Shown in pieces: positions 30,301 through 46,406 of a stretch of DNA of 64,000 bases; position 1 is the first letter of the stretch, and each line of letters opens with the position of its first letter. Source of the DNA: Ascidia mentula (taxonomy: Eukaryota > Chordata > Ascidiacea > Phlebobranchia > Ascidiidae); the NCBI GenBank assembly GCA_947561715.1, contig OX387199.1:19659001-19723000 (forward strand), in the 5' to 3' direction. The notes below the pieces were generated by a model that saw nothing but the letters and a program-made list of their open reading frames with translations, did not search any database and was not told where the DNA came from. A program made the translations under genes and the position numbers.

Positions 30301-33300
30301 TCTGAGCACGTTCGAAAACTCCCCGGGCTCCTCCCTCCTCTCTCTCAACCACGTTCAACATCCGGGACGCTCGTCGACCCCCGACGACTCGAACTACGTT
30401 CCGCGAACCGAGTTAGGGACTCCCCATAAACTGACCTTCTCGACCCCGGCCGGTGCTTACGGTTTCATGAATCACGACTTCGTGGAGAAATCGAACGAAA
30501 TCAAACGTCCCCAGTCTCCTATGGATCTCATCGTGTTGGGAAACAGGAGAGGGAAAGATGGACTGATACGTGATGAGATGTCCGGGCTGGATGACTCCTT
30601 GTTCTCCCAGGTAGGAAAACTCCCGCTCTGTCAGCAGGTCTGCTCACCTGACAACTGCTTGTGTTATTTATGGTAACCGAACGTGTAGAATGTAGTTACA
30701 TGTAGAGGTGTAACATACGTGGAGCGTATTATCTCAAGTTTTGTAGGTGCACTGTTTAGGACAGACTGACTGTTAAAAAACGTTACTTGCACGAGCTTTC
30801 GCGAGCTTAACTCGCTTCATCAGGTGCTGCGAATCTGAAGAAATTGAATTATCCTAAATATGGATGTCGAACCTAATAATAAGTATAGTATTAATGACGC
30901 CGTATTATAAACTGTCTTCATATTTATTAAAGTTAAAAACACATAATCCTTGTCTTCAGGACCAGGACGGCTACTACACCTCCATGCACGAGGCCAGCGG
31001 CATTCGGAGACGGCAAACGGCCCCAGCGGGCCCACGTTACGTCCCCGCCCCCTGCACCCCTGATGTGTTTACTCCAGGGGTTACGGCTGTCCCCCAGCAC
31101 CTTCGGTCGCCCCACGTTTACAATGTCCATGCTGTCCAATCGTCCACACCCAGGAACGTAGACGATAAACGATTCTTCGGAAACGATTTTAGTCCCCGTA
31201 GCGATATTGGCTCCTCCCCTCGCTCGCTGTCGCCACCTAACGGCGATCTTCAGGCCGAGTTGAAGCAAAAATTGTCCAGGAGGAGCCAGAGCGCGTCGCC
31301 AATCAAGCCAAAGCGCACGTCAAGCAAACCAACTCCTCCACGCCGGGATTCGAGCCTTCGATCCCCGCGGATGGGACCAAAGGAAGTCCTTGCTTACATG
31401 GAGCCGCTCAACACGCTTACCAAGAAGGCTTTGCACGGCGATGTTCCGGATTCAGCCTCAAGCATTCAGAATAATAACGAACAGCAAGCTAACATTGTCT
31501 CGCGTAGTTATCAGGCATCACCAGATATCTACGAGATGAACCATAGTAAGGGCGTACCACAATCTACCAACCAAGTGGTCCAGAATGGCGCTGAAGTTCC
31601 TGTAGAAACACCATCAAACACGACATCACCAGACAAAACACCATTGCAAGAAAACAAGGCACCTTTCTCCCCGAGTAAAACACCAGACGGTCCAATAAAG
31701 CGAACACAGTCTGTGAATCAACCAAACACCAGAATATTGTCACCAAGACAACCATCGTCGTTGAGGGAACGAAGTCGAAGTCCTTTGTCGCCACTGGATA
31801 AAACAAATCTGGTGCTTTCTCCAACGGACCATGTTGTTAAAAAACCACCAGTAGCAAAGAAACCATCCAGAAGGATGGCCGGAAGATCCACCAACCTGGA
31901 CCGCCTCAGCACCAGCGAACCATTATCGCCAGATGCTGGTTCAAAAACACCAGTTTCTCGTGAATCTAGTCCTTCCCCAGTCACTGGCTTTTTTGGACGA
32001 AGCACCACTCCAAGCCCTACAACTGGTTCCTTTTCACCATCAACCGCGAACTTCTCGAAACAAACCAGTTCTTCACCAGTATCTGGTGTGTTGGTTCGAG
32101 GAATCACTCCCAGCCCTACACGCAGCTCAGGTTCAAAGACACCAACCCCGCAGCGTTCCAGAGAAACCAGCCCGCAACCAGTAGCTGGTGTTGTGGTCCG
32201 AAATACTACCCCAAGCCCTACCCGAGAAAAAAAAGGTTCCAAAACCCCACAGACTCAAATCAACGGCTTTGCTGAACACAATGGTTTTAAAACACCACCC
32301 CCTTCACCAGTCAAACCTGTAACACCAAAATATCTTACCAAAACACCAACCCCAGCATCTCCGAAGCCATTGGACCCTCCTGTTTCGCCCAAACAAACCA
32401 CGACGCCCATAAAGGCCGTAGCGCCACCTAGTGGCCCCGGTACCAAGCCGCCGACCCCAGTGAAGCCAAAACTTCTAAAACCGCCGGTGAAGCCAAAACC
32501 GTTCGGTCACAAACTTCCCGCGGCAAAATCGCCAACAGATAAAAACGCGACCGCGTTGAAAACGAACGCAAACGAGGGTGACCTTACGCATCCCGGTGCG
32601 AAAAGCAAACAGATCAGCGCGAAGATTGCGGCAGACCGCGCTGCGTTCTTCGCTGGCACTTCACAGCCAAAATCGCCGTTGCCCGTTACTATGAAGCACA
32701 AGGAAATGGAATCCGTTGGCACGCCTTTGTCACCAGTGGTGGAAAAAGATTCAGTGAAGAATGAAGTAGAATTGGTTAAGAAACTCGCCAAAGCCTCGCC
32801 CCAGAGGAATGCCAACGCTAATAACAGCGTTCCCGATGTAAAAGAAGAACGCACTGAGGTTAAATTGACACCGGTGGCCGACAAAAAATTTGATTATGCG
32901 CCGGAAAAAGTTGAACAGAACCTGGTAGACGCAGAAAAAATCCCGACAGTGGCTGAAGCAAGTAGTGTGAAGGTGGATGGATCAGAACGCACGAGTCCAG
33001 AACTGAAAGTTTTGGACGGACATGAAGAAAAACCGGAGGCCTCGAACAACTGGACAGCAGAGAGTTTGGACAGCTCAAATCCATTAACACCAAAAAGCGA
33101 CATTCGATCTTCGTTACAAAGGTTTGTTTAAAACGTGTTGTTAAAGGGATACTAAATTTTATAATTTTCAAGAACTTTAGTGCTATTCTTGCCAGAAGAA
33201 CAGTTCTTACAAATTACAATGCCTGGTAGCCAACATAGCACTAAATTTTTTAATTTAAAAATCAGGGTGTGTGAAGTGCGCTATTGCGGATATATCTTTG

Positions 33301-34786
33301 TAATTTCGTTTATCTTGGACGCAGGTTGCGTAACACACTGCGAAGCTCTTCGCCCGACTCGAACGGACCAAAATCTCCAACACTAAGTCCGGTATCAACT
33401 CTAGAGAGAAACAGAACACACAGGTATGTGGAAATCAGTTGTTTGTAACTACACATGCAAGTCGTTAACGAAGACCTTTCTAGTTTTGTACAGTTAAGAC
33501 TTCTAAGAATTTACTGTTTAAGTTTTCGTAGTTGTTCTGTCCCAGGTTTCCTAGTCTGTTAGTTTTAAAAGCTTCTTAGTTTAAACCATGGTGTTGTTTA
33601 GGTACAGCACGTCAAGTCTCGAACGTCGTCGTCGAGTTTCGGGTTCTTCTTCTTCAAGCACTTCGAGGGACGATTTTAAAGCACTTTTACTTCAAGCTTT
33701 ACCCAAGTAAGGACGACTGTATTCAATAAAACGCTTTAAAATGCACTAAATAACATTCGCATTTGCTTAATATGAACAGGACCAATAGCTCACTATGTAG
33801 TTTTGGTGACAAAAGTAGTGGTATTCTTCCAAAGATACAATTCGAGTCGTGTTGATTGGATAATCTAATTTCTGAAACGTGTTGTCACAGAACGGCGTCG
33901 GGAAACCAAATGACGGCAACAGAAAAACTGCAACGTCAAAGGATAAATTCCTCACCGCTAGCGGGCGCTGATGTGTCGGACAGTACAAAGGGTAAGCGGT
34001 GGTTTTCTATTTATTTTAGCTTTTTTACTAGAGTGCCATGTTTCACAATTTGTGTTGTAACTATGTGTGAACCGAACATACTGCTGTTACGCAAACGATT
34101 TTAGACGACAAACAATCGACTTCGAATTAGTTTTATTCCAAAATCACATCACGAAATTCGATTTCTTTGTTTGAAGATTCGAGAAGTCAAATCTTGTCCA
34201 TGAGCAACTTGAAGGCTGCCATGGGATCGGGACGGCAGGGAAGGAGGCCGAACAGACATAGCCCCGACAATCGAAAGTCGTTCGCCGGAATAACTAGTTA
34301 CGGAAAGAGGCATCCACCCGTTACCATGAATAAGTGAGTTTTAAAATGTTTTTGATAAATCCGTACATCTTGGGATCGAATTCAAAGGTTGTCATAGCAC
34401 TCCATTTCGTAGTTTTATTTGACAAACTGTTGGAAAATTACAAACATACGCGTAAAAAAACGCTGTTTTTATGACTTACTACATTATTTAAGCCCTTTTC
34501 ACGCTTTTAAATACTTTTTTCCTTTTCACGCTCTTAATATATTCATTGCCGTTTTTCTTAATGAAATTAACGTGTTCAAACACAAGCGCTGTGCAAACGT
34601 TTACTTTTTTTTGGTATTGTGTTTGTCAAGTCGTAATTTCCACCTACTCCACGCAGATACAATATACGAAGCCGAACCCCAACCCGACCGATGATGTCAA
34701 TTTCGGAAGACAGCGAAACCGAAAAATCACCGGAAAAAGAGGAAGAAATAAAAGACGATGACATCTCACAAGGAAGCTCAGTCTGA
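5876..34786 (+). CDS. NHSL: Nance-Horan syndrome-like (NHS/NHSL) protein, long isoform
   Basis: Exons: 5876-5962, 6119-6225, 6307-6386, 23440-23576, 24224-24349, 25436-25556, 26549-26701, 27908-28011, 28564-28662, 28955-29056, 29355-29465, 30209-30610, 30960-33121, 33325-33423, 33602-33706, 33891-33991, 34177-34333, 34657-34786 (TGA 34784-34786). The total is 4383 nt, 1460 aa, with all phases consistent. The start MPFVKRRIQP and the following helical exons match the WAVE-homology domain of NHS proteins, running into 'IPVSNLEEE' and 'TRTPCLIHLH'. Later family blocks: 'GCQFDRKVNLRRS' (about 220), 'IQTDDVKIV' (about 280), 'DQDGYYTSMHEASG' (544), 'STSRDDFKALLLQALP' (about 1320), 'RSRTPTRPMMSISEDSETE' at the C-terminus. 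Family members regulate actin dynamics at lamellipodia and junctions through the WAVE/Abi complex. The middle is disordered, rich in SP/TP sites and PxxP motifs. The C-terminus is complete. Confidence 0.93.
6387..23439 (+). other. ~17 kb intron 3 of NHSL, with an internal alternative first exon
   Basis: All other introns of this gene are under about 1.6 kb, so this one is exceptional. Apart from the exon at 22096-22192 I find no spliced coding exon. A 186-codon ORF on the - strand (17036-17596) resembles no family I know. By eye the stretches around 15.0-15.4, 19.4-19.8 and 20.25-20.6 kb are richer in C+G than the surroundings. The intron is a likely home for enhancers and for the promoter of the short isoform. 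Confidence 0.7.
22096..22192 (+). CDS. NHSL: Alternative first coding exon of NHSL (MGN isoform)
   Basis: ATG at 22096 opens a 32-codon frame beginning MGNTSAKQDSNRF and ending at a strong donor (AAAG|GTAAGG). The leftover base gives phase 1, exactly the phase of exon 3 at 6386, so it can splice to exon 4 at 23440 and read on as 'YHKAVSNLEEE'. The resulting protein would be about 1401 aa and lack the WAVE-homology start. The N-terminus is basic and Ser-rich with Gly2 followed by small residues, compatible with N-myristoylation (inference). Vertebrate NHS genes also have alternative 5' exons, which supports the reading. An acceptor-like CGCACAG ends only four bases before the ATG, so the exon could receive a spliced leader or an upstream untranslated exon. 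Confidence 0.72.
28719..28802 (+). repeat. Interspersed repeat, copy 1 (NHSL intron)
   Basis: Matches copy 2 at 30745-30833 in the same orientation over about 85 bases, including a palindromic core (GAGCTCTCGCGAGC) and the shared tail CGCTTCATCAGGTGCTGC. It is probably a terminal part of a small non-autonomous transposon; the other end was not identified. Confidence 0.6.
29051..29138 (+). repeat. Four tandem 22-bp units duplicating a 5' splice site (NHSL exon 10)
   Basis: Units at 29051-29072, 29073-29094, 29095-29116 and 29117-29138, the last with a single-base change. Each contains ATGATG|GTAAGATG, i.e. the end of exon 10 and its donor. The first donor (exon end 29056) keeps the reading frame to exon 11. 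Use of any of the three downstream donors would read GTA AGA TGA and stop. Confidence 0.9.
30745..30833 (+). repeat. Interspersed repeat, copy 2 (NHSL intron 12)
   Basis: Second copy of the element at 28719-28802, with the same order of blocks: GGACAGACT, an A-run, TTGCACGAGC, a CTCGCGAGC-type palindrome and CTTCATCAGGTGCTGC. It lies shortly before exon 13. Confidence 0.6.
31938..32245 (+). repeat. Degenerate tandem repeat coding SP/TP-rich units inside NHSL exon 13
   Basis: About three units of 30-40 codons. Each contains a 'GSKTP' or similar lead, then 'SxSPxPVxG' followed by 'xxRxxTPSPT'. Clear copies are 'SPSPVTGFFGRSTTPSPT', 'SSSPVSGVLVRGITPSPT' and 'TSPQPVAGVVVRNTTPSPT'. Each unit offers several proline-directed phosphorylation sites. 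This is expansion within a disordered region, not a folded domain. Confidence 0.8.
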
Positions 34787-35010
34787 ACGCCAGGTTTCCA
34801 ACCCAACATGCAAGAAATTCACGACTTTGGGAGGAAAAAGAGCGAGGGAGCAACGGAGCAGAGTGGGAGAAAGGGTGCTTGTGACGTCATAGACAGTCGA
34901 AAGTAAACTCGATAATGAGCTTGTGGTCCGCGTATTACGTCCTGTCATTGTGTTTACAAAATGTATTGTTCGAGTTTTGCGCTAAATGAGAATCAAGAAT
35001 TAGTGACATT

Positions 35011-35016
35011 ATTAAA
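35011..35016 (+). terminator. Candidate poly(A) signal of NHSL (ATTAAA)
   Basis: ATTAAA 225 bases after the NHSL stop. A canonical AATAAA follows at 35272-35277, so alternative 3' ends are possible. Which is used cannot be told from sequence. Confidence 0.45.
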
Positions 35017-35277
35017 GGCTTTTCTAATTTTCAAGCTCGTTGCTAAACCACATACTGATACCTTCCGTAATTGTGCAGCTTTTTGCTCGAAAGGCTACAG
35101 TTACTGAAATTGGTCTACAAGATTTCTGAACCGTGCGATCACCGTATAACTGTGAGTGCCTCTGCCCCTATTTCCCGGTTTGTCGTTTGCACAACGTAAT
35201 TCTTCATATGCGACATCTTTATTTGTTTTTTGCTGCTTCGCGTTGTTTGTTGATCATTCGCGACGCAAATCAATAAA

Positions 35278-36163
35278 AGCGGCGCAAAGAAAACGGGTTT
35301 GCGACAAGAATATGATATAACAAAGTTCGCAACAAACGAATCTGAAAAGATCCAATGTTTTTGAGATGAAATCTCTATTTTTGATCATCAGTAACATGGC
35401 AGAAGTGGCGAATAGTAGCATTTTAAAAAAAGAGCTATTTTAGGGATAAAATTTCGTACATATTACTTGGAATTCCATTGGGAAAATGTCCACAGGTTGA
35501 CATATAGGGAATTAATAGGTTAACGGAACTCAATCACGCTAAAAATTATTTAAAAACAAATAATTTTTGCGATAGTGGCACTAGAACCGTTATAGCAATA
35601 AAACTGCTTGGCAGATTTTTAAACGCATGTGAAATGTAAATGCAGACAAAAACAATCGGCTTTGTGACGTAACAGATCTATCGCAAATCGTCTCCTGGAT
35701 GATGAAAACTTTCACCATTTTTCAACCTTTCTTCAGGTGGGTGGGGAGATTTTGTGTCAACAAACTAAACGTTTTCAACAACGAATTAAAGCTCGATAAA
35801 CATGTACTTTGAAAGCTGACAACTTCAAGCATTATTGGTTAAAAGTAATATTTACCTCAAACGGCTCTTGACTCACAGTCTCGAAGGCAATCATTTTCCT
35901 GACTGAAAACAAAAAAAAATCTTTCAAAACGGAATCAGTTAGGTCCAAAATATTGCTGTAGTGTTAAGAGTGGCACAAAAAAAAACAATAAAAAAGATCG
36001 TTTCCTATGTTGAAAGCAAGTTAAGGATGGGTTAGCGAAGTAAAAAATAAATTATATTATATAGGTCTGCATGGTGTTTTTATCAGTTTTATTATTTTCA
36101 CATTAAATGGATTTCTTCTGATACGAAGTGCGTAATTTTAAAATATAAAATTTTAATTTTCTA
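35278..36163. other. Intergenic gap between two convergent genes, nothing coding seen
   Basis: AT-rich sequence with A-runs, lying between the 3' end of NHSL (+) and the 3' end of the LRR-ZU5 gene (-). No ORF with coding character, no repeat and no RNA gene recognised. Confidence 0.5.
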
Positions 36164-36169
36164 TTTATT
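36164..36169 (-). terminator. Candidate poly(A) signal of the LRR-ZU5 gene
   Basis: AATAAA on the - strand, about 215 bases after the stop codon at 36384-36386. Confidence 0.5.
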
Positions 36170-36383
36170 GACATTGTTAATTTCATTGCAATTTAGCTTG
36201 AATTTTTCAAAATTACTGGGTCGCAACAGTTGTCTGAAAACTTGATCGGTCGGCAAGAACCACTGGTTTGTTTCTTGAATTTAAATACCTTGAAAATCCC
36301 TTGGAACGAAAAAGAAGTCCCCCGCCAATCGCTGTGAAGATAACTCCAACCGATACCGGATTTCTTGGAAAAAGATTCCCGAC

Positions 36384-39300
36384 TCACGTTTTCGCAACTT
36401 TAACGTCGCCACCCACGGTTCGGGGAATTCCCCTTCGTTGTGAAGTTTCCTCGGTTCGACGTCGACTTGTTTGCTGGAAACGGAAATGTGCGGACACTTC
36501 CAAGTGTTCCTGAAAGAACGAAATCCGGTTGTTTTTGTTGCGTCGACTGTTCACGGAACTTGGAAAACACTGCGTTTGGATAACGAAAAATCACGGTTCG
36601 CCCTACGTGATCTCACAGGTCTTATGACGTAACAACGGCGAACATACACAAAAAGCACGTTTGAATTTATTATAATATGATTGTAATCAATTCACAGTCA
36701 CGTGGGAGCGTGCGCTTCTTTCTTATCTTCGCTATCAGCCACAAGGGTCGCTACAACGCTATAGTTTACAGTTCAAGGGGATAGCGTCAAAGAAATATTT
36801 GCTTCCAGTTTCCAATTCAATTCTATTAACTTATGTGTACCGTGTTTGTGTGTTTTATCGCTATTATTTTATTAATTTATGAATCTGGTTTTTGTACAGT
36901 TAATGAGCAGGTCTTATTTTGTAATTATTTGAATAATTTTTTTTCAGTACGGAAACTGTCGATTAAGAAGGCAAAAATTAATATTTCTATGACATTTCTT
37001 GATAAAAGATCGCACTGACGCCGATCGTCTGCCACCCTTATAAGTAATTTTGGACGTTATTTTGTTTAAATATAATTCGTAATTCCAATGGGTCGCGACT
37101 TATAGTTACTCTAATTTTTATGTGATTATGGGCGGATTGATTTTGTCTTGAACCTTGATATTTTATCATGTAAGACACTTTTAACGGAATTAACACCCTA
37201 AAACATGTTCTTTCGAACAGAGACATTTCTCTACAGGAAACCTGATGACAAATCGCTTCTTGTGGACGATCGTCATCTTTTCAACTGTGACCGCGTCTTT
37301 GGTGTCGTCGAATATGAAGCAAGATAGGTTGATTTCATCCGGGTCAGTAGAGTATAGAACGGGTGCCGCGATGACAAGGATTTTGTTCAGGTGAGAGTGG
37401 ATGACGTTAGAAGCTGACTCCATCATAATCCTGTAAATTTTATTTTTAAATTTGCCTTAAAACCGTGTGTATGTAGGCCGTGGGAATAATTTAAAAACAC
37501 TCATAAAATATATATAACCGTACAAAGTGCCTCCCATATAAACGGTTTAGTTTCTTTCTTTATCTGAAGTTAAAAAATAGCTTGGAATAAACGCGTATTG
37601 GTTTATCAAACTGATTAATAACAACAACAAGACCATGAATAAATGAAACAGCGCACCCAACAAAAACATCAGTTTGAACGCAGATCTGTCTCTGCGTGGA
37701 ATGGCGGATGGTTTTAATGGTTTCCCATTTCTTCCCATCTGCAGTTTGACGAACCTTCAAACAATACGGCCGATATAACTTAACAAAAAATAAAGAAAAT
37801 GTACAAACCGCTATCCGAACCGTTCGTTTCCCGTCTGTCACGTGACAAGTGCTTAAAATGACGTCGATTGGATTGTTGTTAAAGTTTAAACCTTCAGGAT
37901 ATAGAAATAACACTGACGATAGTTTTTTCTGCAAAAGAAATGCATTTTATTAGAAAACATAGGTTGTTGTGCGAGGGTTCAACTGTTTGTGCACTTACCG
38001 AAATTCTGTTCGGTGCATAGTAAGAAGTTAATACGATTTGCGTATTTTCCTCAAGAGCTTTCCGTGGAATGGTAACTGTGGAACCTCCAATTTGTATACA
38101 ACCACCCAATGGTCCGATCGTAGCAGACACAGTGCGTTTAGTAGCCAATGTCTGAACAAATATATTATTAGAAACTTAAACAGCAAAGCACATTTTCAAA
38201 TTTCCTTGACAACAAGTTCAAATTATCGTTTTTCTTTGCCTGGTGGTTTGTCGTCATGGGCGTCGACGGTTTCTCATAATTTATTCGTGGAAACGTTTGT
38301 CTTCGAACGCTTGAACAGCATAGAATGTTGATTCCTTCGTACAACGAACTTTCCGCATCACTTAACTCGACGGGGTTTCCCCTCAAGTCAATCTGCTTCA
38401 ACTATAGAAAGCATAACTTTTCCGAAAATATGAAAACATTACATCTTTTGCAATTTGATTTTAACATTCACACTCTGTTTCTAACTTGTTGCATTCGCGT
38501 TAAATTCTCAGATGTTACTAAAAATTGTCTCTTTAAATCTCAACAAAAAGGTGTGATTGTGGTAAAGTATATGTGTATAACAATACGGCTGAAATGAAAT
38601 TCAAAATAAAATTAAAGTTTACCCAACATGGCTGCTCTTTTACGCGGGATAGCAGACATCTGACGTCAAAAGGAAGAACGCTACAACTTTTCAAACCCAA
38701 GTTTGTAACGTTGGTTACACATCCTGATAAATATTGTATTCCTTGCCATCCAATGGGGTTTCCACTGAGATCCAATCGCAGCAACTGAATTAAACGAATT
38801 GATTGATTTTAAACAATCGTTTACAAGAATATTCACGTTGCATTCACACATAACAGCCACGTTAAGCTATCGGCCAGTGCTGGATTTTGAATATGCTGAC
38901 TCTTAGGCAATAGTAACGGGCATGCATGCCTTGTTTGTCTACTGGTTATAATCCAGTACTGCCATCAGCGATACAACCTTTACTACCACTGCCTAAAGTA
39001 AGTCGGTTCGCTGTTCCTGGAAGAATTCAACAGCTGGTGCTGTGCCCTTTTTTGTTGAGAGAAACTTAAATTGAATTATTCGCTTTAAGAAACCTCAAAA
39101 TACAATGGTTAATGTTTTTCCTGAAAATTTAATCGTTCCAGGAGGAATTATTTTTAACTTTTAACTCTGTTTACTACACGTTATGACACAAAGTGTTGTG
39201 ATAAGTAACTGATGCAAGATGTAACGAGATATTTATGGGGATAATATGCATAGTTCAAGCAGAAGTTACAGCAGGCATACCCACAAATACCTCAGAGTGT

Positions 39301-41449
39301 GTGTCTGCGAAAAAAAGCACCGAATGTCCAATGTTGTGGGTTCAAACCTCACCGCGGGAGCAATACTTGTTGGTCACGTACTTGACTATAACCCAAGGTT
39401 CAAGGATTTGCAACTTACCGGTTTTCGGCGACTTTTTACAGATCTTGAAAGAACTTCAACATCTGGAGGTTGAAGCAGACATTCGCAGAGCAGAAAACTT
39501 TCCGCGTGGTTTAGGCAGAGAGCGATATATTCGACACCGCGCGATCCGATTGGATTGTTGGAAATATCAATTAGCTTGATCTGTGACATATTTGTGACTT
39601 TATATTGAGATAATTATTGTTTCCAATGAACTTTATTGTAACCTAAACTATTCTAGGTATATGTCAAAAAAACACTACACAGTTCTAACCATGAGTCTTA
39701 CAGTATTGTTCTGGAATGAGGCAAAAAAACTAAGTGCAGAGTCTTTAAAAGAACAATTACCGGTTTCTTTAATTCCCTTAGCGCGTGACTAAGAATTCGG
39801 ATTTCTGCAGATTGAACGTTGCATCCAGGAATACAAAGTTGTTCAATGTTGGAAATACAGTCGGATTCGCATAGAGATCGTATTCCGACTGTGCCGATAA
39901 GATTTCCCGACAAATTGAGAAGATACAACTGTGTAAGAAACAAAATTATTGTTTACGAACAAGTACACAGACCTGTTTTTCTACCCTATTTTTTCTACCA
40001 AGAAAAATTAATTTCAAACAGTACTGTTGAAAGTATTATAATGCAGTGAAACTAATTTATTGGGAATTAAATAATTTTTTTATGTAATCTTCAACTCAAT
40101 ATGCTTAAACGTAATGTCAAGGTTTCTATGTGACATACTGGTCGCTGCAGACGTTTAATTGCTTCAGCAAGAATTTTGATGTATCTAGGTTGTAAATCAC
40201 AACAGATCAGAATCAACTGATTGATGTTGAACAGAGAGGTGGAAATAGAGTCAATGTCTTCCGGCCCGGTGATATGTTGCCGTATTTCCAAGAGCTCCAA
40301 CTAAGCAACAAACGACAAGAAATAATTGTTTACAAATCCAGGTAAACCCAAAATACAAACAACAGGGCGGTACCGGAGTTGTTCTCAGTCGAATGGCGTC
40401 AATAATTCGTGAATTTTCGTCGTTTTCGGCGGGTGAGAGCCATAACTTTTCCACAGTGGATGTGACTGAAGTTATTATATATTGCAGTTCTTCTTCGTCG
40501 AAACTTGCTTGCTGTTTGTGAAGCTCCCTAACCTATGTGTTAAAATGCGGTTACTATTTAGTAGCTTGACTGGCCTAAGCGAAAACAAGTATGCTATTTT
40601 TAAGAAACCCCTAAAGTTAATTGTGTACATAACCATATTGCAGTGTTCGCTGTAAATTAGTGTTCCCAACCGGTGGTACGCGAGCAACTTTCAGTAGTTT
40701 GCGGACATAGTTCGAATTTAAAGTGGTCTCAAAATATTTGTCACTTCATCCCCTAGGTTACTTTGTTACACTCAACTAGGTGGTTATACGCGTGGTACGC
40801 AACCACAAAAAGGTTGGGAATCACTGTCATAAGTGGTCGCTTGCAACAACAATTGTTTTTTTGAAGACATTTTTTCTCAGTAATAAGTTGTGTAAAATGA
40901 CATGGTTTTGTCAAAACCCATGGCTTCCAGTTTAAGCACAAAAGGGATTCAAAATGACCACTACCATCCCATCCCATGCCATTGGCCTTTGGCATTATAC
41001 GCAATTTATTACGCAAAATAGAATGTTTTGGTTGATCTTGGATTGATGGATCAACCCTTACCTGATGTTTTTTATCCAGCAGCTCGCATAGAAGTAGTTT
41101 CAACGCATCGTTTGTGAATGTACCCACAATGTCGATTGTCCAACTCCCTCCAACAGTCCGTATCTCGCGAATCAGGTTTTCCACGTGTTTTGGTTTGCCT
41201 GTCGTCGAAATTTTGCGCTGAATTCCATCGGGAGAATCGTTGTTGTAAACGCAGGCGTCTAAAAAAAAGAATTGTGAACGACAGCACGCACAATTCATTC
41301 GAAAACGGTTTTACGATTTTTATGTCAACCTTTTCCACGGTTGGTTTCACACGGGAATGCTTTCCACAAACGGAAAGTGATAATAAATTGTTTTTGGCGC
41401 CAGGACGATCCCAACACGGAAACAAATGGACATTTGGACAACCGACCAT
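36384..41449 (-). CDS. LRR-ZU5-UPA-like protein without NACHT or death domain
   Basis: Exons, 5' to 3' on the - strand: 41449-41353, 41258-41062, 40532-40374, 40300-40139, 39928-39761, 39580-39419, 38784-38623, 38401-38240, 38151-37999, 37928-37657, 37430-37235, 36509-36384. Phases agree throughout; 671 aa. Residues 99-423 are six exon-encoded modules of 53-56 aa. The best ones read 'LLRLDLSGNPIGWQGIQYL', i.e. ribonuclease-inhibitor/NLR-type leucine-rich repeats. Residues about 424-564 resemble ZU5: 'IGPLGGCIQIGGSTVTIP', 'LYPEGLNF', 'TADGKKWE'. Residues about 565-640 are UPA-like ('EINLSCFIFDDTKDAV'), then a basic tail. The nearest known arrangement is PIDD1 (LRR-ZU5-ZU5-UPA-death), but there is no death domain here and the repeats are of a different class. 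Residues 33-98 are unrecognised. The first exon was chosen for its ATGG context and matching phase and is tentative. Role unknown; possibly a cytosolic scaffold or sensor. Confidence 0.75.
38238..38239 (-). promoter_or_regulatory. GC-AG donor splice site after the last LRR exon
   Basis: On the - strand the exon ends CCACCAG and continues GCAAAG. Cutting here makes the exon exactly 54 codons in phase 0, the same size as its neighbours, and joins in frame to the ZU5 exon. No GT donor nearby gives a consistent phase. Confidence 0.7.
38240..40532 (-). repeat. Six exon-sized leucine-rich modules, one per exon, all phase 0
   Basis: Exons 40532-40374 (53 codons), 40300-40139 (54), 39928-39761 (56), 39580-39419 (54), 38784-38623 (54) and 38401-38240 (54). 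Each starts with L/I-x-x-[LI]-[DN]-[LI]-S-x-N-x-I-G, contains a central Cys-rich L-x-L-x-x-C half-repeat, and mostly ends in a basic residue plus Pro just before a donor. The first two modules are more diverged. The symmetric phase makes gain or loss of repeats by exon duplication easy. Confidence 0.85.
40658..40826. mobile_element. hAT-like MITE (~170 bp) in an intron of the LRR-ZU5 gene
   Basis: Left end TAGTGTTCCCAACC and right end GGTTGGGAATCACTG are inverted repeats with few differences. The CAGTG-type terminus and the subterminal GGTGGTACGC copies on both sides are typical of hAT-derived elements. There is no coding capacity. A clean 8-bp target duplication was not seen. Confidence 0.65.
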
Positions 41450-43634
41450 TGCTTTGCTATTTACCGCTTTACTCTGGACTTAATAAATCATTGTTTGCTC
41501 ACAAAACATTTGTTTTGTCAGATAGAGCGTTTGTCCGGCAATAGAGCTCTTGTTTACAATCAGAACGCACTTTCGTACACGCCCAGTGGTCATTCTGCTT
41601 TCACTTCATAAAATCTGACTTGATATAGAAGTGCGCAATGGTTAGGGTTATGGTTGACCGCGTTAATTTGCGGGAAAAAGTGGCCTTCGACTGATACTGT
41701 ATATTGATTGGTGATCAAAATAGTTCATGGGTTTTGGGTGAATAACTAAACAATACCAACGTCATTCACTACAATCTATGCGTTGTAATGTGGCTTTCGG
41801 ATAGAATGGCAAATGTTAACATTTTTAACGATGGAAAACGCAATTAAAGGCTTTGGGATGCAAATTGTCACACTACGAGCTATCTGGGTATACTAACAAA
41901 AGTATGGGGTCGTATCAAAACCATAGGAGCTGCTTTGAATGTTAATAATGCTGGATTTGCAATACAATATAAGGGCAAATGTTCATTTATGTCGCGAAAC
42001 ACTCACCAAATTCTTCCACTTTGGAGACCGAGGTTGTCTCATTATCAGAAAGTCCAATCCACTTTTCTGGCATTGTGTTTTGCTTCAGTGCTTCCCTATT
42101 ATTTTTCGCGGTTCCGCCTTGGATATTTTACCAAAAAGTTAAATGTTACCGCCTAACGTAAAATATATTGACACCATCCCCTGTTACAATGATTGTAAAG
42201 ACTTCGTCTCTTTTTCTTTGAAAACACTCTTTAATTACAGTGGCTTATTTGTTACGAAGTGGCGTTATATGTGAAGTCACATTATGTAGTCACCCTTGCC
42301 TAGATACACGTGCTCGTTGCTGAGCAATCTTATTCCATATTGTGTAACGTACGAAACATATTTCAAAAGTTTTCGTTGTATATAAGACCTCTAATTGCTT
42401 CCAATGTGGTATGATCGAAACATGAAATATGCACAACTGCCGATATTTATTCTGTACATCTTTACAATGTAAACACCTGTTGTTGCACAAGCTAAAATAA
42501 AGAGAACATTGCGCAGCACAAATTCAGCTTTAAAATGCCCTTGAAGCTGCGCCAATACAGCGCCCTTTAAACCTGCAGACAAACTAACCAAATTAACATT
42601 GCTGAGTGCTGGCTAAGTCTACTGGGTTTCCCCATGCATAGTTTGGTGCGCAGGAACGCCTGTGCCATTTCACAGTCAGGTGACGTCTGTCCGCAGCTCG
42701 TCAGGCGTTTACAAAGCACCGAGGCCTTGTTTGCTAAAACGCCTCACTGCACAACGCGTGTTGAAAACGATGTTGTCCTGGGCCACGAAATACCACCAGC
42801 CAGGCTGGCAACATCAACCGCCAATCACTTTGATCTCAAGTTATCCCCAAGAAAGATATCAACTTGTGATTTTGACCCCGGGTTACCTTTGTAGATAAGC
42901 GAAAGGTTTAACTTACCGCTTTCACATATTCTATCCTGTTTTGGTGAAATTTAACAAATGTTACAAACAGAGTAGGCTATGTAATGAAAACAGGTATTGC
43001 TTCATATGTACTATAAAATAAAACTTCCGCATTTTGGTTAAGACCAGGCTATTTCCTGAGCAATGACGTAATGTTTTGCAGCTAATAAAATGACCACGTA
43101 AAGGCAATAACAGGTAGTAGCACATGATCTGCCAATCCCCTAAGAATAGAAGCAAGTTGTTTCTCCAAACAAAGGGGCAATTATTCGACTGTTTGTCACT
43201 AAGTATGCAAATCCCAAATCGGGAAATTTGCCCGGGGCAGCTTAAAAGTGCTTCAAGTGGTCGATCAACGATTGCATCAAGGCCTCTATTGATACTGTAT
43301 GCTAATCGCAAGGATATCTGCGGCCGAACAAGTGATTCACCGCCGGTATAATTCCTTATATAAGTCCGCCTAATGTATGAAGATTTATTCGCATTCGAAT
43401 GAGCTGTTGAATGAGTGTGGTTTTTACTTCAGTATAGTTGCTTCTGTGCATTTGGCCGACGAATGTGAAATGTTAGCGAGTAAATTGCGAATAGTTCACC
43501 TATAGGTTGTAAAACATATGTTTACGTCATAACCGATGTTAAACTTATCACAAAGTTCGTTTCAATGCATGTTTGACTTTGTGTAGTTAATATAGTAGAA
43601 GTTATTTTTATCTAAAGCCGTTTATATATCTACA
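41450..43634. other. Divergent intergenic region between LRR-ZU5 (-) and the lectin gene (+)
   Basis: About 2.2 kb with no convincing coding sequence; the small ORFs here have no recognisable features. A TATATAAG at about 43357 and a TATATA at about 43625 are candidate core-promoter elements for the downstream gene. The promoter of LRR-ZU5 should lie at the left end. Confidence 0.45.
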
Positions 43635-43654: not shown

Positions 43655-46406
43655 ATGTTTCAATATTCTCTCGTCGTCGTCTGCTGTTTGTTCGGAGTTC
43701 TTCACTCGGTGACGTCATCACAATGCCGACTGACCACCGAAACCACCTCGGTGTGTGAGCCCCAATCGGCCCCAGGGGAAGTACCTGACCCCGCTGCGGA
43801 CCTGAAGCAGTTTAAGATGGGCGTATTGAACTCGCTTGCTCGTAAGTAACTCAATACTCCTATGGTTATCCTAATCGGAACAACATATCATGATATCGCC
43901 CAATCCCACCTAAGAGTCTGCGTTACACCGAACTGTATATTGCAGTCATGTAGTTTTTTACCGATTGAACAATTCAATCATGATTTAGTCTCGATTTTTG
44001 ATGCTTGGGAGTGCGATTATTATATGAATTGATAGTTAATGAAACGATATTTCAGACATGCCGTTTTTTTCGAACTAATGTTTGTTTTTGTGCAGAGATT
44101 AACGCAAGCTTGAAGGAGGTTTCAGACAAATTGATTGCGAAACTTGACGAAGCAATTGACAGTAAGTTTGTAAACATGTATATGTTGAGTAAAATATATA
44201 GGATTCATTTCAATTTATTTTGTATCCAAGAATGGATCTTAAAATATGACAAAACTAAATGTTACCACTGTTGTGTTTGCAATTGAATTCAATGCTATAT
44301 GACCGAGCTATATGATACTTTTATAATTTCGAAAATAATCTGTTTTAGAACTGAAAGAATCTAATGATGACTCGGACGAACCAGGTAAATATTATTTGAT
44401 TGTTGGGCGAATTGCTTACTTGTTTTCATGTTTTTTTTTTTGTTAATCACATCTTCCCACTGCTGTATATATGCTTGAACCAAGCTACCCTAGCAGACTG
44501 TCGGTTGACAAATGCATCGGTAGTTTTTGTGCAAAGCTGAAAATGCGAATTAAACAGTGCATCCATAGATGTTTTTTTCAGAAAAATATATTTTTTCTGA
44601 CTCTGTAGGTGAAATATGTTTTTGTCAAAATTTCAATTTATTTTTTAGAATATGAAAACGCCAACAATGCGTGCTCGGACTTTACACAAGACGGAAAGTT
44701 TAATCTAACTTCTGGAGTTGAAGTTTTGTGCTCAGGCGGTTGGACGGTAGGAAACAAATCTGCTCAACTATAACACCCAATTTCCCTGCTCTGTATTTAC
44801 ACCATGCATGGTACATGTATTAAGACCGGTGGTACTTAAACTTTTTCGCGTGCTACGCACTGGGAAAGATTCACCAATTATTAATTTATCACGCGAATCG
44901 TCGCAGAAGGCTGACTTAAGATATTATTTGCCTCCAGTTTTCTTGTAAGTTATTACATGCACGACGCACTTGAAAACTTAAAAAAAAATAAACGCACTTG
45001 CGGACGTCGCAATGCACAGTTTGAGAACCTATAGGGAATAAACCATAATGCACTTAAAAATTCCCAATCTAAACATATTCAAAGGTTATCTTCTGAAGCC
45101 TAAAGAACAACAGATTTGCACAAAATATCACAATATTGGTTTTCTTAGGTGATCCAACGAAGATGGAGCGGCAACGTGAATTTTAAAGCTAGAACATGGG
45201 ATGAATATAAAAACGGATTTGGAGATTTGAGCTCCGAGTTTTGGTGGGGTAAGTCACTTTAGTTTGTCCGCTATATCTTCAATACTTGCTTGTTCAATAC
45301 TCGGCTTATTTTGTGTATACGATTGCTGACTTAAAGCAAACGTTTGGAAAGTGTGAATGGATTCGTGCCCAGAAGAGCTTAATTCAAATGCAAACAACTC
45401 CAAAATTTTTAAAAAAAAATTTTGGGATCGGGAAAAATACCAAAAATCACTATGGCCTTCAGTAGGTGATAATAATTTTATTCTTAGGTCTTGAAAACTT
45501 GCACAGGATGACGAAGAATGGTGGATGCCGCCTGAACCTTGAAATCTGGTTTCCTGATGCCAACCCAGCATACAGTTCGGCTGACTATGGGTACTAACAG
45601 ATAAACTAATTTGTTCGTGTAGTTAATTATATAATGGACAAAGGAGCAGGTGTCACATTGTTATTTGAATTTAAAAGCCCCAATTTCAACTTTAAAGTCA
45701 GTTACAGACGTGAAAAACAATAGAAGTTTAATATAAAGCCTTGTCGTTCAACCTAGCCTAAAAACTGTTCTCTATCGCAGAACATTTCAAGTTGCAAACG
45801 AATCAGAACTCTACCGTCTCCAAGTGTCGGGTTACAGTGGTAACGCAGGAGACAGTCTGACACCAGCAAACGACCCGACCAAAGACGTTAACGGAATGTA
45901 TTTCTCTACCCCTGATTCAGACAACGACAAGTAAGCACCACGTGATGCTACAAGTACATTTCTGTTGTCAAAATAACTTGGGACAAAATCCAATCAAGAA
46001 CGATACGCCCTACTTTGTGACAACTACACTCAAAGCTAGACACACAATAAGAAATTATTGGTGATGAGCCCTTGCATGCATGAAATCTTCATTTTTTGTA
46101 TTGTTAGTGTACAATCAGGTTGTTTCACATGCAAAAATCTTATGCTGTCAGTTCGAAAGAAAAGTTTTCACATTTTGGAACTCAATTTTAACTAAATAAG
46201 CGATTTTTGTCCTTTTTAATTTCAGTTGGTTGTCGGGAAACTGTGCTGAAATGTACGGGGGATTTTGGCACAACTCCTGCACTTACGCTCGCCTCAACGC
46301 GGACTGGAACCCACAATCTTCTGCCCAGAACACGATCAGTTGGTTCAAACGTTTGGACACCTGGGGAGGAATAGATACAACTGATGTGAGAGTCAGATGT
46401 GACTGA
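43655..46406 (+). CDS. Secreted fibrinogen-related domain (ficolin-like) protein
   Basis: Exons: 43655-43841, 44096-44161, 44349-44384, 44649-44746, 45149-45248, 45488-45590, 45781-45930, 46226-46406 (TGA 46404-46406). The total is 921 nt, 306 aa, all phases consistent. Residues 1-22 form a signal peptide (hydrophobic VVVCCLFGVL). Residues about 65-90 are a short heptad-like helix ('NASLKEVSDKLIAKLDEAID') likely to oligomerise. Residues about 104-306 are the fibrinogen C-terminal domain: 'GGWTVIQRRW', 'WDEYKNGFGDLSSEFWWG', 'MYFSTPDSDNDNW' (the Asp-rich calcium site) and 'NCAEMYGGFWHNSC'. In the family such proteins bind acetylated sugars or other surface patterns outside the cell and serve in innate recognition. 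No collagen stretch is present, so it is not a classical ficolin; ligand unknown. Confidence 0.93.
44822..45034. repeat. Possible degenerate MITE in a lectin-gene intron
   Basis: Left side contains ACCGGTGGTACTTAAAC; right side ends CAGTTTGAGAACCT. The internal CGCGTGCTACGCACTGGG resembles the GGTGGTACGC motif of the hAT-like element at 40658-40826. The inverted ends are imperfect, so this call is tentative. Confidence 0.35.

Follow-up and report, generated by a model that had tools for sequence, protein, structure and literature searches.

An LRR-ZU5 gene on the minus strand

We analysed a stretch of 64,000 nucleotides (the window) from the ascidian Ascidia mentula (assembly GCA_947561715.1, contig OX387199.1, positions 19,659,001 to 19,723,000, forward strand), in which a first-pass annotation had placed a gene for an unusual leucine-rich repeat (LRR) protein with ZU5 and UPA-like segments at 36384..41449. 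The gene itself is there, and its bounds are corrected to 42073-36281 on the minus strand, where an exon chain predicted from sequence gives 13 exons and 706 residues with the phase kept at every junction (Table 1). The start codon is the ATG at 42073 and the stop codon the TAA at 36281; the reading frame is open over 2121 nt, and an in-frame stop sits 57 nt ahead of the start. Exon boundaries were inferred from GT/AG and the reading frame, and the product of the per-exon chances of openness in the set frame, calculated for shuffled sequence of each exon's length, is about 2e-21, a figure uncorrected for splice-site choice. The boundary of exon 8 is uncertain, since its weak donor is followed by an intron of 40 nt. 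An alternative end of exon 11 is possible at 37657, also in phase 2, which is the place matching the exon end of the relatives described below. The gene looks intact and, as far as its sequence tells, would encode a protein with RI/NLR-type LRRs and a ZU5 domain, without a NACHT engine or a death/CARD tail.

The LRR region is the part of the protein that Pfam recognizes directly. LRR_6 was the sole model above cut-off on the 706-residue protein (E = 1.9e-8), with LRR_1 below cut-off, and this match, together with the repeated phase 0-0 exons of about 54 residues, places RI/NLR-type LRRs before the ZU5. In a genome search with the protein, the LRR part was 26-45% identical to other places of the genome, and a protein search with residues 1-420 returned one match (E = 2.9e-5), to a protein that has both NACHT and LRR domains. 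The LRR score of exon 3 was compared with shuffles of exon 2 only, which is no proper control. Residues 1-88 were identified neither as a CARD nor as an NLR cap by Pfam, profile, shuffle and model checks. Several candidate identities for exon 2 were discarded: a CARD, suggested by eye, had no Pfam support; a remnant of an NLR cap/NACHT exon, also first seen by eye, gave a profile score of 11.9, inside 100 shuffles (maximum 18.7), and in an anchored test 1395 of 3000 shuffles did as well; and 670 of 5000 shuffles were as good as the end of the exon read as an LRR half-exon.

Table 1. Window positions of the predicted exons of the LRR-ZU5 gene and of two nearby features
Feature	Positions	Strand	Description
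Exon 1	42007..42073	-	start codon, MPEKWIGLSDNETTSVSKVEEF; phase 1 at end; donor G|GTGAGT
Exon 2	41062..41258	-	N-terminal segment, about 65 residues, fold not recognised
Exon 3	40374..40532	-	phase 0-0; taken as first, degenerate LRR exon, by eye only; weak donor GTACCG
Exon 4	40139..40300	-	LRR exon, phase 0-0; such exon ends align with other LRR exon ends
Exon 5	39761..39928	-	LRR exon, phase 0-0
Exon 6	39419..39580	-	LRR exon, phase 0-0
Exon 7	38623..38784	-	LRR exon; holds best Pfam LRR_6 stretch, residues 306-324
Exon 8	38192..38401	-	last half-LRR and linker; weak donor GTGCTT
Exon 9	37999..38151	-	first part of ZU5; intron place and phase common to relatives
Exon 10	37809..37928	-	middle of ZU5
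Exon 11	37612..37754	-	end of ZU5; reads QTDVFVGC where relatives read THF(S/T)W
Exon 12	37242..37430	-	start of UPA-like tail; weak donor GTTTCC
Exon 13	36281..36509	-	end of UPA-like tail and stop codon TAA
Poly(A)-like signal AATAAA	36164..36169	-	about 112 nt past stop codon
Fibrinogen_C exon of head-to-head neighbour, outside the gene	45737..45934	+	Pfam PF00147, E 1.5e-12

ZU5 domain, tail and putative cleavage motif

The window protein has a single ZU5, and the case for it is indirect because Pfam does not see the domain in the window's own protein. Neither did phmmer call it against PDB sequences, and two protein searches with ZU5-region queries found no match. Relatives in the same genome supply the link. 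In a genome search, four C69 places matched residues 425-522 with 31-34% identity (best E = 1.3e-6), two of them passing the Pfam ZU5 cut-off. In an alignment of the window sequence with seven relatives, seven of the eight sequences, all except the window's own, gave a Pfam ZU5 match within E = 10, the best at 4.7e-8, and a profile of the eight-sequence alignment searched against PDB sequences found ankyrin-2 (E = 8e-4), ZO-1 (2e-3) and UNC5B (0.1). Aligned with hhalign against six own-genome relatives, two of whose rows (C70 and C71_19.146) are without the third ZU5 exon, the window ZU5-UPA region gave a probability of 97% (E = 4e-11, query residues 2-117), and six shuffled controls all stayed at or below 0.9%. 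At the predicted splice sites, both ZU5 introns of the window gene are in phase 0 and correspond in place and phase to introns of relatives: the first to those of C1 and C70, the second to those of C1, C70 and C71, all four genes having an AAG acceptor at the second. In the C69 ZU5 genes no intron interrupts the first of these places, and in the ZU5 of an ankyrin in the same genome none interrupts the second. The profile, the intron places and the relatives' own Pfam matches thus indirectly support a ZU5 domain in the window protein.

What follows the ZU5 is harder to name. The ZU5 and tail together scored 36.6 against ankyrin-1, -2 and -3 and UNC5B, above all 100 shuffles (maximum 19.4), in an alignment that continues into exon 12; the tail alone scored 17.6 against the ankyrins and UNC5B, inside 100 shuffles (maximum 20.4). 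The relatives' tails matched neither FIIND nor ankyrin UPA, and the window tail did not match the relatives' tails. Because the tail by itself scores within shuffles and fits neither FIIND nor the tails of relatives, we call it UPA-like by position only, a designation that is weakly supported. A Pfam UPA search of the genome returned no match, and is blind here, since split exons reading like ankyrin UPA exist. One locus with a split UPA that this search missed is C69:3078001-3098000, where ankyrin-like exons (ankyrin repeats, ZU5, UPA) are followed by an open frame of more than 7.4 kb that extends past the end of that interval, in what looks like a giant ankyrin. Of the LRR-ZU5-UPA-like order given in the first-pass annotation, with a profile search as the way to check it, the LRRs are borne out by LRR_6 and the ZU5 by way of its relatives, and the UPA is not; Pfam on the assembled protein sees neither ZU5 nor UPA, a failure overcome for ZU5 only.

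The end of the ZU5 carries the motif on which a functional reading turns. PIDD cleaves itself at HFS, and CARD8 and NLRP1 at SF/S, as set out in PMC3210808. At the corresponding place, 12 of the 15 third exons read from relatives have HF(S/T/A)W (7 HFSW, 4 HFTW and 1 HFAW) and three show no readable motif in frame, in a count where eight of the 15 were fetched as matches to a query ending in HFSWW, which biases the share upward, and which omits the C69 genes, whose third exons were not identified. This motif looks like the HFS self-cleavage site of PIDD, and we infer that the relatives may cut themselves at the end of the ZU5, the threonine form being a candidate only. SFIHG, at first read as the cleavage place of the window protein, was replaced by VFV after alignment. 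Because both the serine and the histidine are lost at the motif place, the window protein is predicted not to cleave itself.

A related ZU5 family in the same genome

As judged from genome searches, the LRR-ZU5 gene is not an isolated oddity, because a large related ZU5 family lies in the same genome. Its members (C70:2.09-2.64M, C71:17.5M, C71:19.06-19.16M, C1:24.5M and others) resemble the window gene in having LRR exons and in spreading the ZU5 over three exons, whose intron places and phases correspond wherever they were read. An NLR-type cap exon opens the genes of the C70 cluster, which mostly have HF(S/T)W where read, whereas the window gene has another N-terminus and VFV. No close copy of the window gene was found by genome search. 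A relative used as query gave 175 exon matches in the genome, only part of which are listed; the first-ZU5-exon matches among those listed, entered by hand with nearby cap-exon and NACHT rows, make up a sample of 76, which excludes one ZU5 row, C71:4353627, whose match begins at query residue 14. The counts that follow are not censuses, the lists being partial and 95 of 317 NACHT candidates having been scored.

Twenty of the 76 have an NLR-type cap exon within 15 kb upstream in an open frame shorter than 200 residues, and therefore no NACHT in the cap exon itself; some of these loci may still have a NACHT in another exon. Taken singly, their cap matches are weak (E = 7e-4 to 0.88), and the eight that were fetched all read as one kind of cap. 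In the 2.7 kb that precede the C70:2.229M cap exon, no plus-strand frame is as large as a NACHT exon. A further four of the first exons have a cap exon of NACHT-exon size (546-610 residues), two have cap exon frames of 865 and 952 residues, one has a NACHT match and 49 have none of these among the listed rows. At C70:11470200-11472900 an NLR-type cap exon is in frame with a Pro/Gln-rich 865-residue frame, which has a 952-residue counterpart at C70:11484137. At two loci a NACHT match, LRR exons and a ZU5 follow one another on the same strand: C1:24.507-24.513M (NACHT E = 1e-17, ZU5 E = 2.8e-5) and C71:12.436-12.440M (NACHT E = 1.5e-22, ZU5 0.012, below cut-off). Their order and strand suggest that each is one gene. 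The window gene seems to be a diverged member of this large family, lacking the NACHT of the loci with NACHT-LRR-ZU5 order.

Short Gly/Asn-rich repeats, such as VGDHGTVNQGN, occur in exons flanking the ZU5 genes at C69:4.706-4.750M, and similar short motifs come after the UPA-like exons of the C70 (2234132) and C1 (24514370) relatives; these are possibly a beta-helix or amyloid-type motif.

On our best reading, the closest known kinds are NLRP1 and CARD8, followed by PIDD1. FIIND is a ZU5-UPA module (D'Osualdo 2011, PMC3210808), and an LRR-ZU5-UPA order therefore equals the LRR-FIIND half of NLRP1. In the window protein, as in NLRP1, RI-type LRRs precede a ZU5 and a UPA-like tail, and NACHT is absent as in CARD8; the differences are that it has no match to NACHT, PYD or CARD, has VFV instead of SF/S or HFS, and has a tail that is UPA-like by position only. 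The C1 and C71 loci have the layout of NLRP1 without the CARD. The initial view that the architecture belongs to no named family is thus half right: it corresponds to half of NLRP1, and the ZU5 family of this genome has many members that adjoin NLR-type LRR or cap exons, and a NACHT neighbours some of its members. Ankyrin, UNC5B and ZO-1 resemble the window protein in their ZU5, by profile match, and are set apart by their other domains, which were not found in it; the intron places also differ from those of the ankyrin in this genome.

In the literature, a 2024 survey mentions FIIND for the NLRP1 of mammals and for some NLRPs of fish, and gives ascidian NLRs as holding only NACHT-LRR or NACHT (PMC11508797). 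TRADD-N domains fused to FIIND and to a UPA-ZU5 module are described in PMC8195603, and a paper on sponge NLRs mentions ZU5 once (PMC12909245). A literature search on ZU5, UPA, FIIND, PIDD, NLR and NACHT in ascidians, tunicates, Ciona and invertebrates found no invertebrate LRR-ZU5 family in the titles and abstract openings among the matches listed.

Possible role and alternative explanations

We favour, at a little under an even chance, the reading that this is an intact gene without a close copy, encoding an intracellular LRR-ZU5-(UPA-like) protein that is a divergent, NACHT-less and non-self-cleaving member of the family and acts as a scaffold or trans-inhibitor. Like NLRP1, CARD8 and PIDD, the relatives would cut themselves where the ZU5 ends and so set free a C-terminal UPA-like piece. 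Unable to cut itself and without a known effector, the window protein would either act as a scaffold guided by its LRRs or inhibit in trans, its ZU5 holding the C-terminal pieces of cut relatives, in which case the LRRs would give specificity. There is a precedent in rat NLRP1 and CARD8, where ZU5 expressed alone blocks the released C-terminal piece, as reported in PMC11760013. Trans-inhibition of cut relatives is the mechanism we prefer, at well under an even chance, with a plain scaffold or a decaying gene next. We speculate further, and consider it doubtful, that the family is an invertebrate counterpart of the NLRP1/CARD8 self-cleaving sensors, with dozens of HF(S/T) LRR-ZU5 proteins, with or without NACHT and lacking CARD, expanded in one genome, and the window gene as a dedicated uncuttable restrainer of the released pieces. 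If the family does self-cleave, LRRs, in some cases with NACHT, were linked to a cuttable ZU5 either before the vertebrates arose or on two separate occasions, and an uncuttable member would offer a natural way to test whether ZU5 inhibits in trans.

Several observations weigh against the favoured reading. Besides the absence of a Pfam ZU5 call in the window protein and the upward bias in the motif count, the ZU5 relatives are only 25-34% identical to the window ZU5, and no LRR was seen by eye in its closest matches by identity, the C69 ZU5 genes. The NLR cap exon has no match in exons 1-2, and descent from a NACHT gene would be conjecture. Trapping UPA pieces requires a UPA, yet neither the window gene nor its relatives score significantly for one. 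The donors of exons 3, 8, 10, 11 and 12 deviate from GTRAGT and are weak.

These weak donors, the divergence from the relatives found, and the joint absence of NACHT, cleavage motif and clear UPA would also fit a decaying gene, a functionless remnant of a NACHT-LRR-ZU5 gene. We regard decay as unlikely, given 13 exons that stay open with matching phases, the very small product of chance openness, and the lack of a close copy, which argues against recent duplication.

Less probable is a stand-alone LRR-ZU5 adaptor in which exons 1-2 form a signalling domain of their own, a degenerate CARD/DEATH-type bundle, like a small PIDD or CARD adaptor reversed. The hydrophobic spacing in exon 2 (VENLIREIRTVGG...ALKLLLCELL) recalls, by eye, the last helices of a CARD, and the exon has a sub-threshold Pfam NCH3 match (E = 0.086); against this, Pfam gave no CARD or Death match to the 706-residue protein at E up to 10. 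A single-sequence AlphaFold2 model of exon 2 alone, with one helix and two strands at pLDDT 48, is too poor to inform either way.

There is also a slim chance that the exon chain lacks, or has wrong, its 5' or 3' end and that the real transcript has a NACHT or a Death/CARD tail, as the NACHT-LRR-ZU5-order loci in the same genome and an exon chain predicted from sequence alone would allow. NACHT, like Death and CARD, had no Pfam match at E up to 10 in the protein, and none of the three matched in eight chosen minus-strand ORFs (open reading frames) flanking the gene within 33767-43428, other ORFs being judged by eye only; the lack of NACHT and death domain noted at first pass is upheld. The intron between exons 2 and 3 measures 529 bp, and about 1.6 kb separates the gene from the nearest plus-strand ORF whose start looks like a signal peptide; the minus-strand ORFs chosen in this region and further downstream gave no Pfam match. 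The in-frame stop before the ATG likewise speaks against this reading. Across the family, none of 27 Death or 9 CARD matches fell within 15 kb of the 76 ZU5 places (genome lists compared by eye), where split Death or CARD exons could escape.

PIDD1 has two ZU5 domains and PIDD-type LRRs. The first-pass annotation named PIDD1 as closest, with a death domain and other repeats, and made no other comparison; NLRP1 and CARD8 are nearer. That the gene is a PIDD1 orthologue minus the death domain and one ZU5 is very improbable: the two share the LRR-ZU5-UPA order, and the window gene's relatives carry a PIDD-like HFS motif, but its LRRs are of RI/NLR type (LRR_6, phase 0-0 exons of about 54 residues), it has one ZU5, no HFS and no Death, and the ZU5 genes with both its intron places adjoin NLR-type LRR and cap exons.

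Beyond the gene itself, the head-to-head fibrinogen-related neighbour described at first pass is confirmed by its Fibrinogen_C exon. Its proximity is weak evidence of an immune role, and the immune setting proposed for the LRR-ZU5 gene remains conjectural. Tail to tail with the gene, 30858-33131 on the plus strand holds a 757-residue stop-to-stop frame rich in Ser and Pro. Elsewhere in the genome, dense NACHT matches on one strand at C71:14.2-15.4M, in frames mostly of about 480 residues, look like a tandem NLR array.

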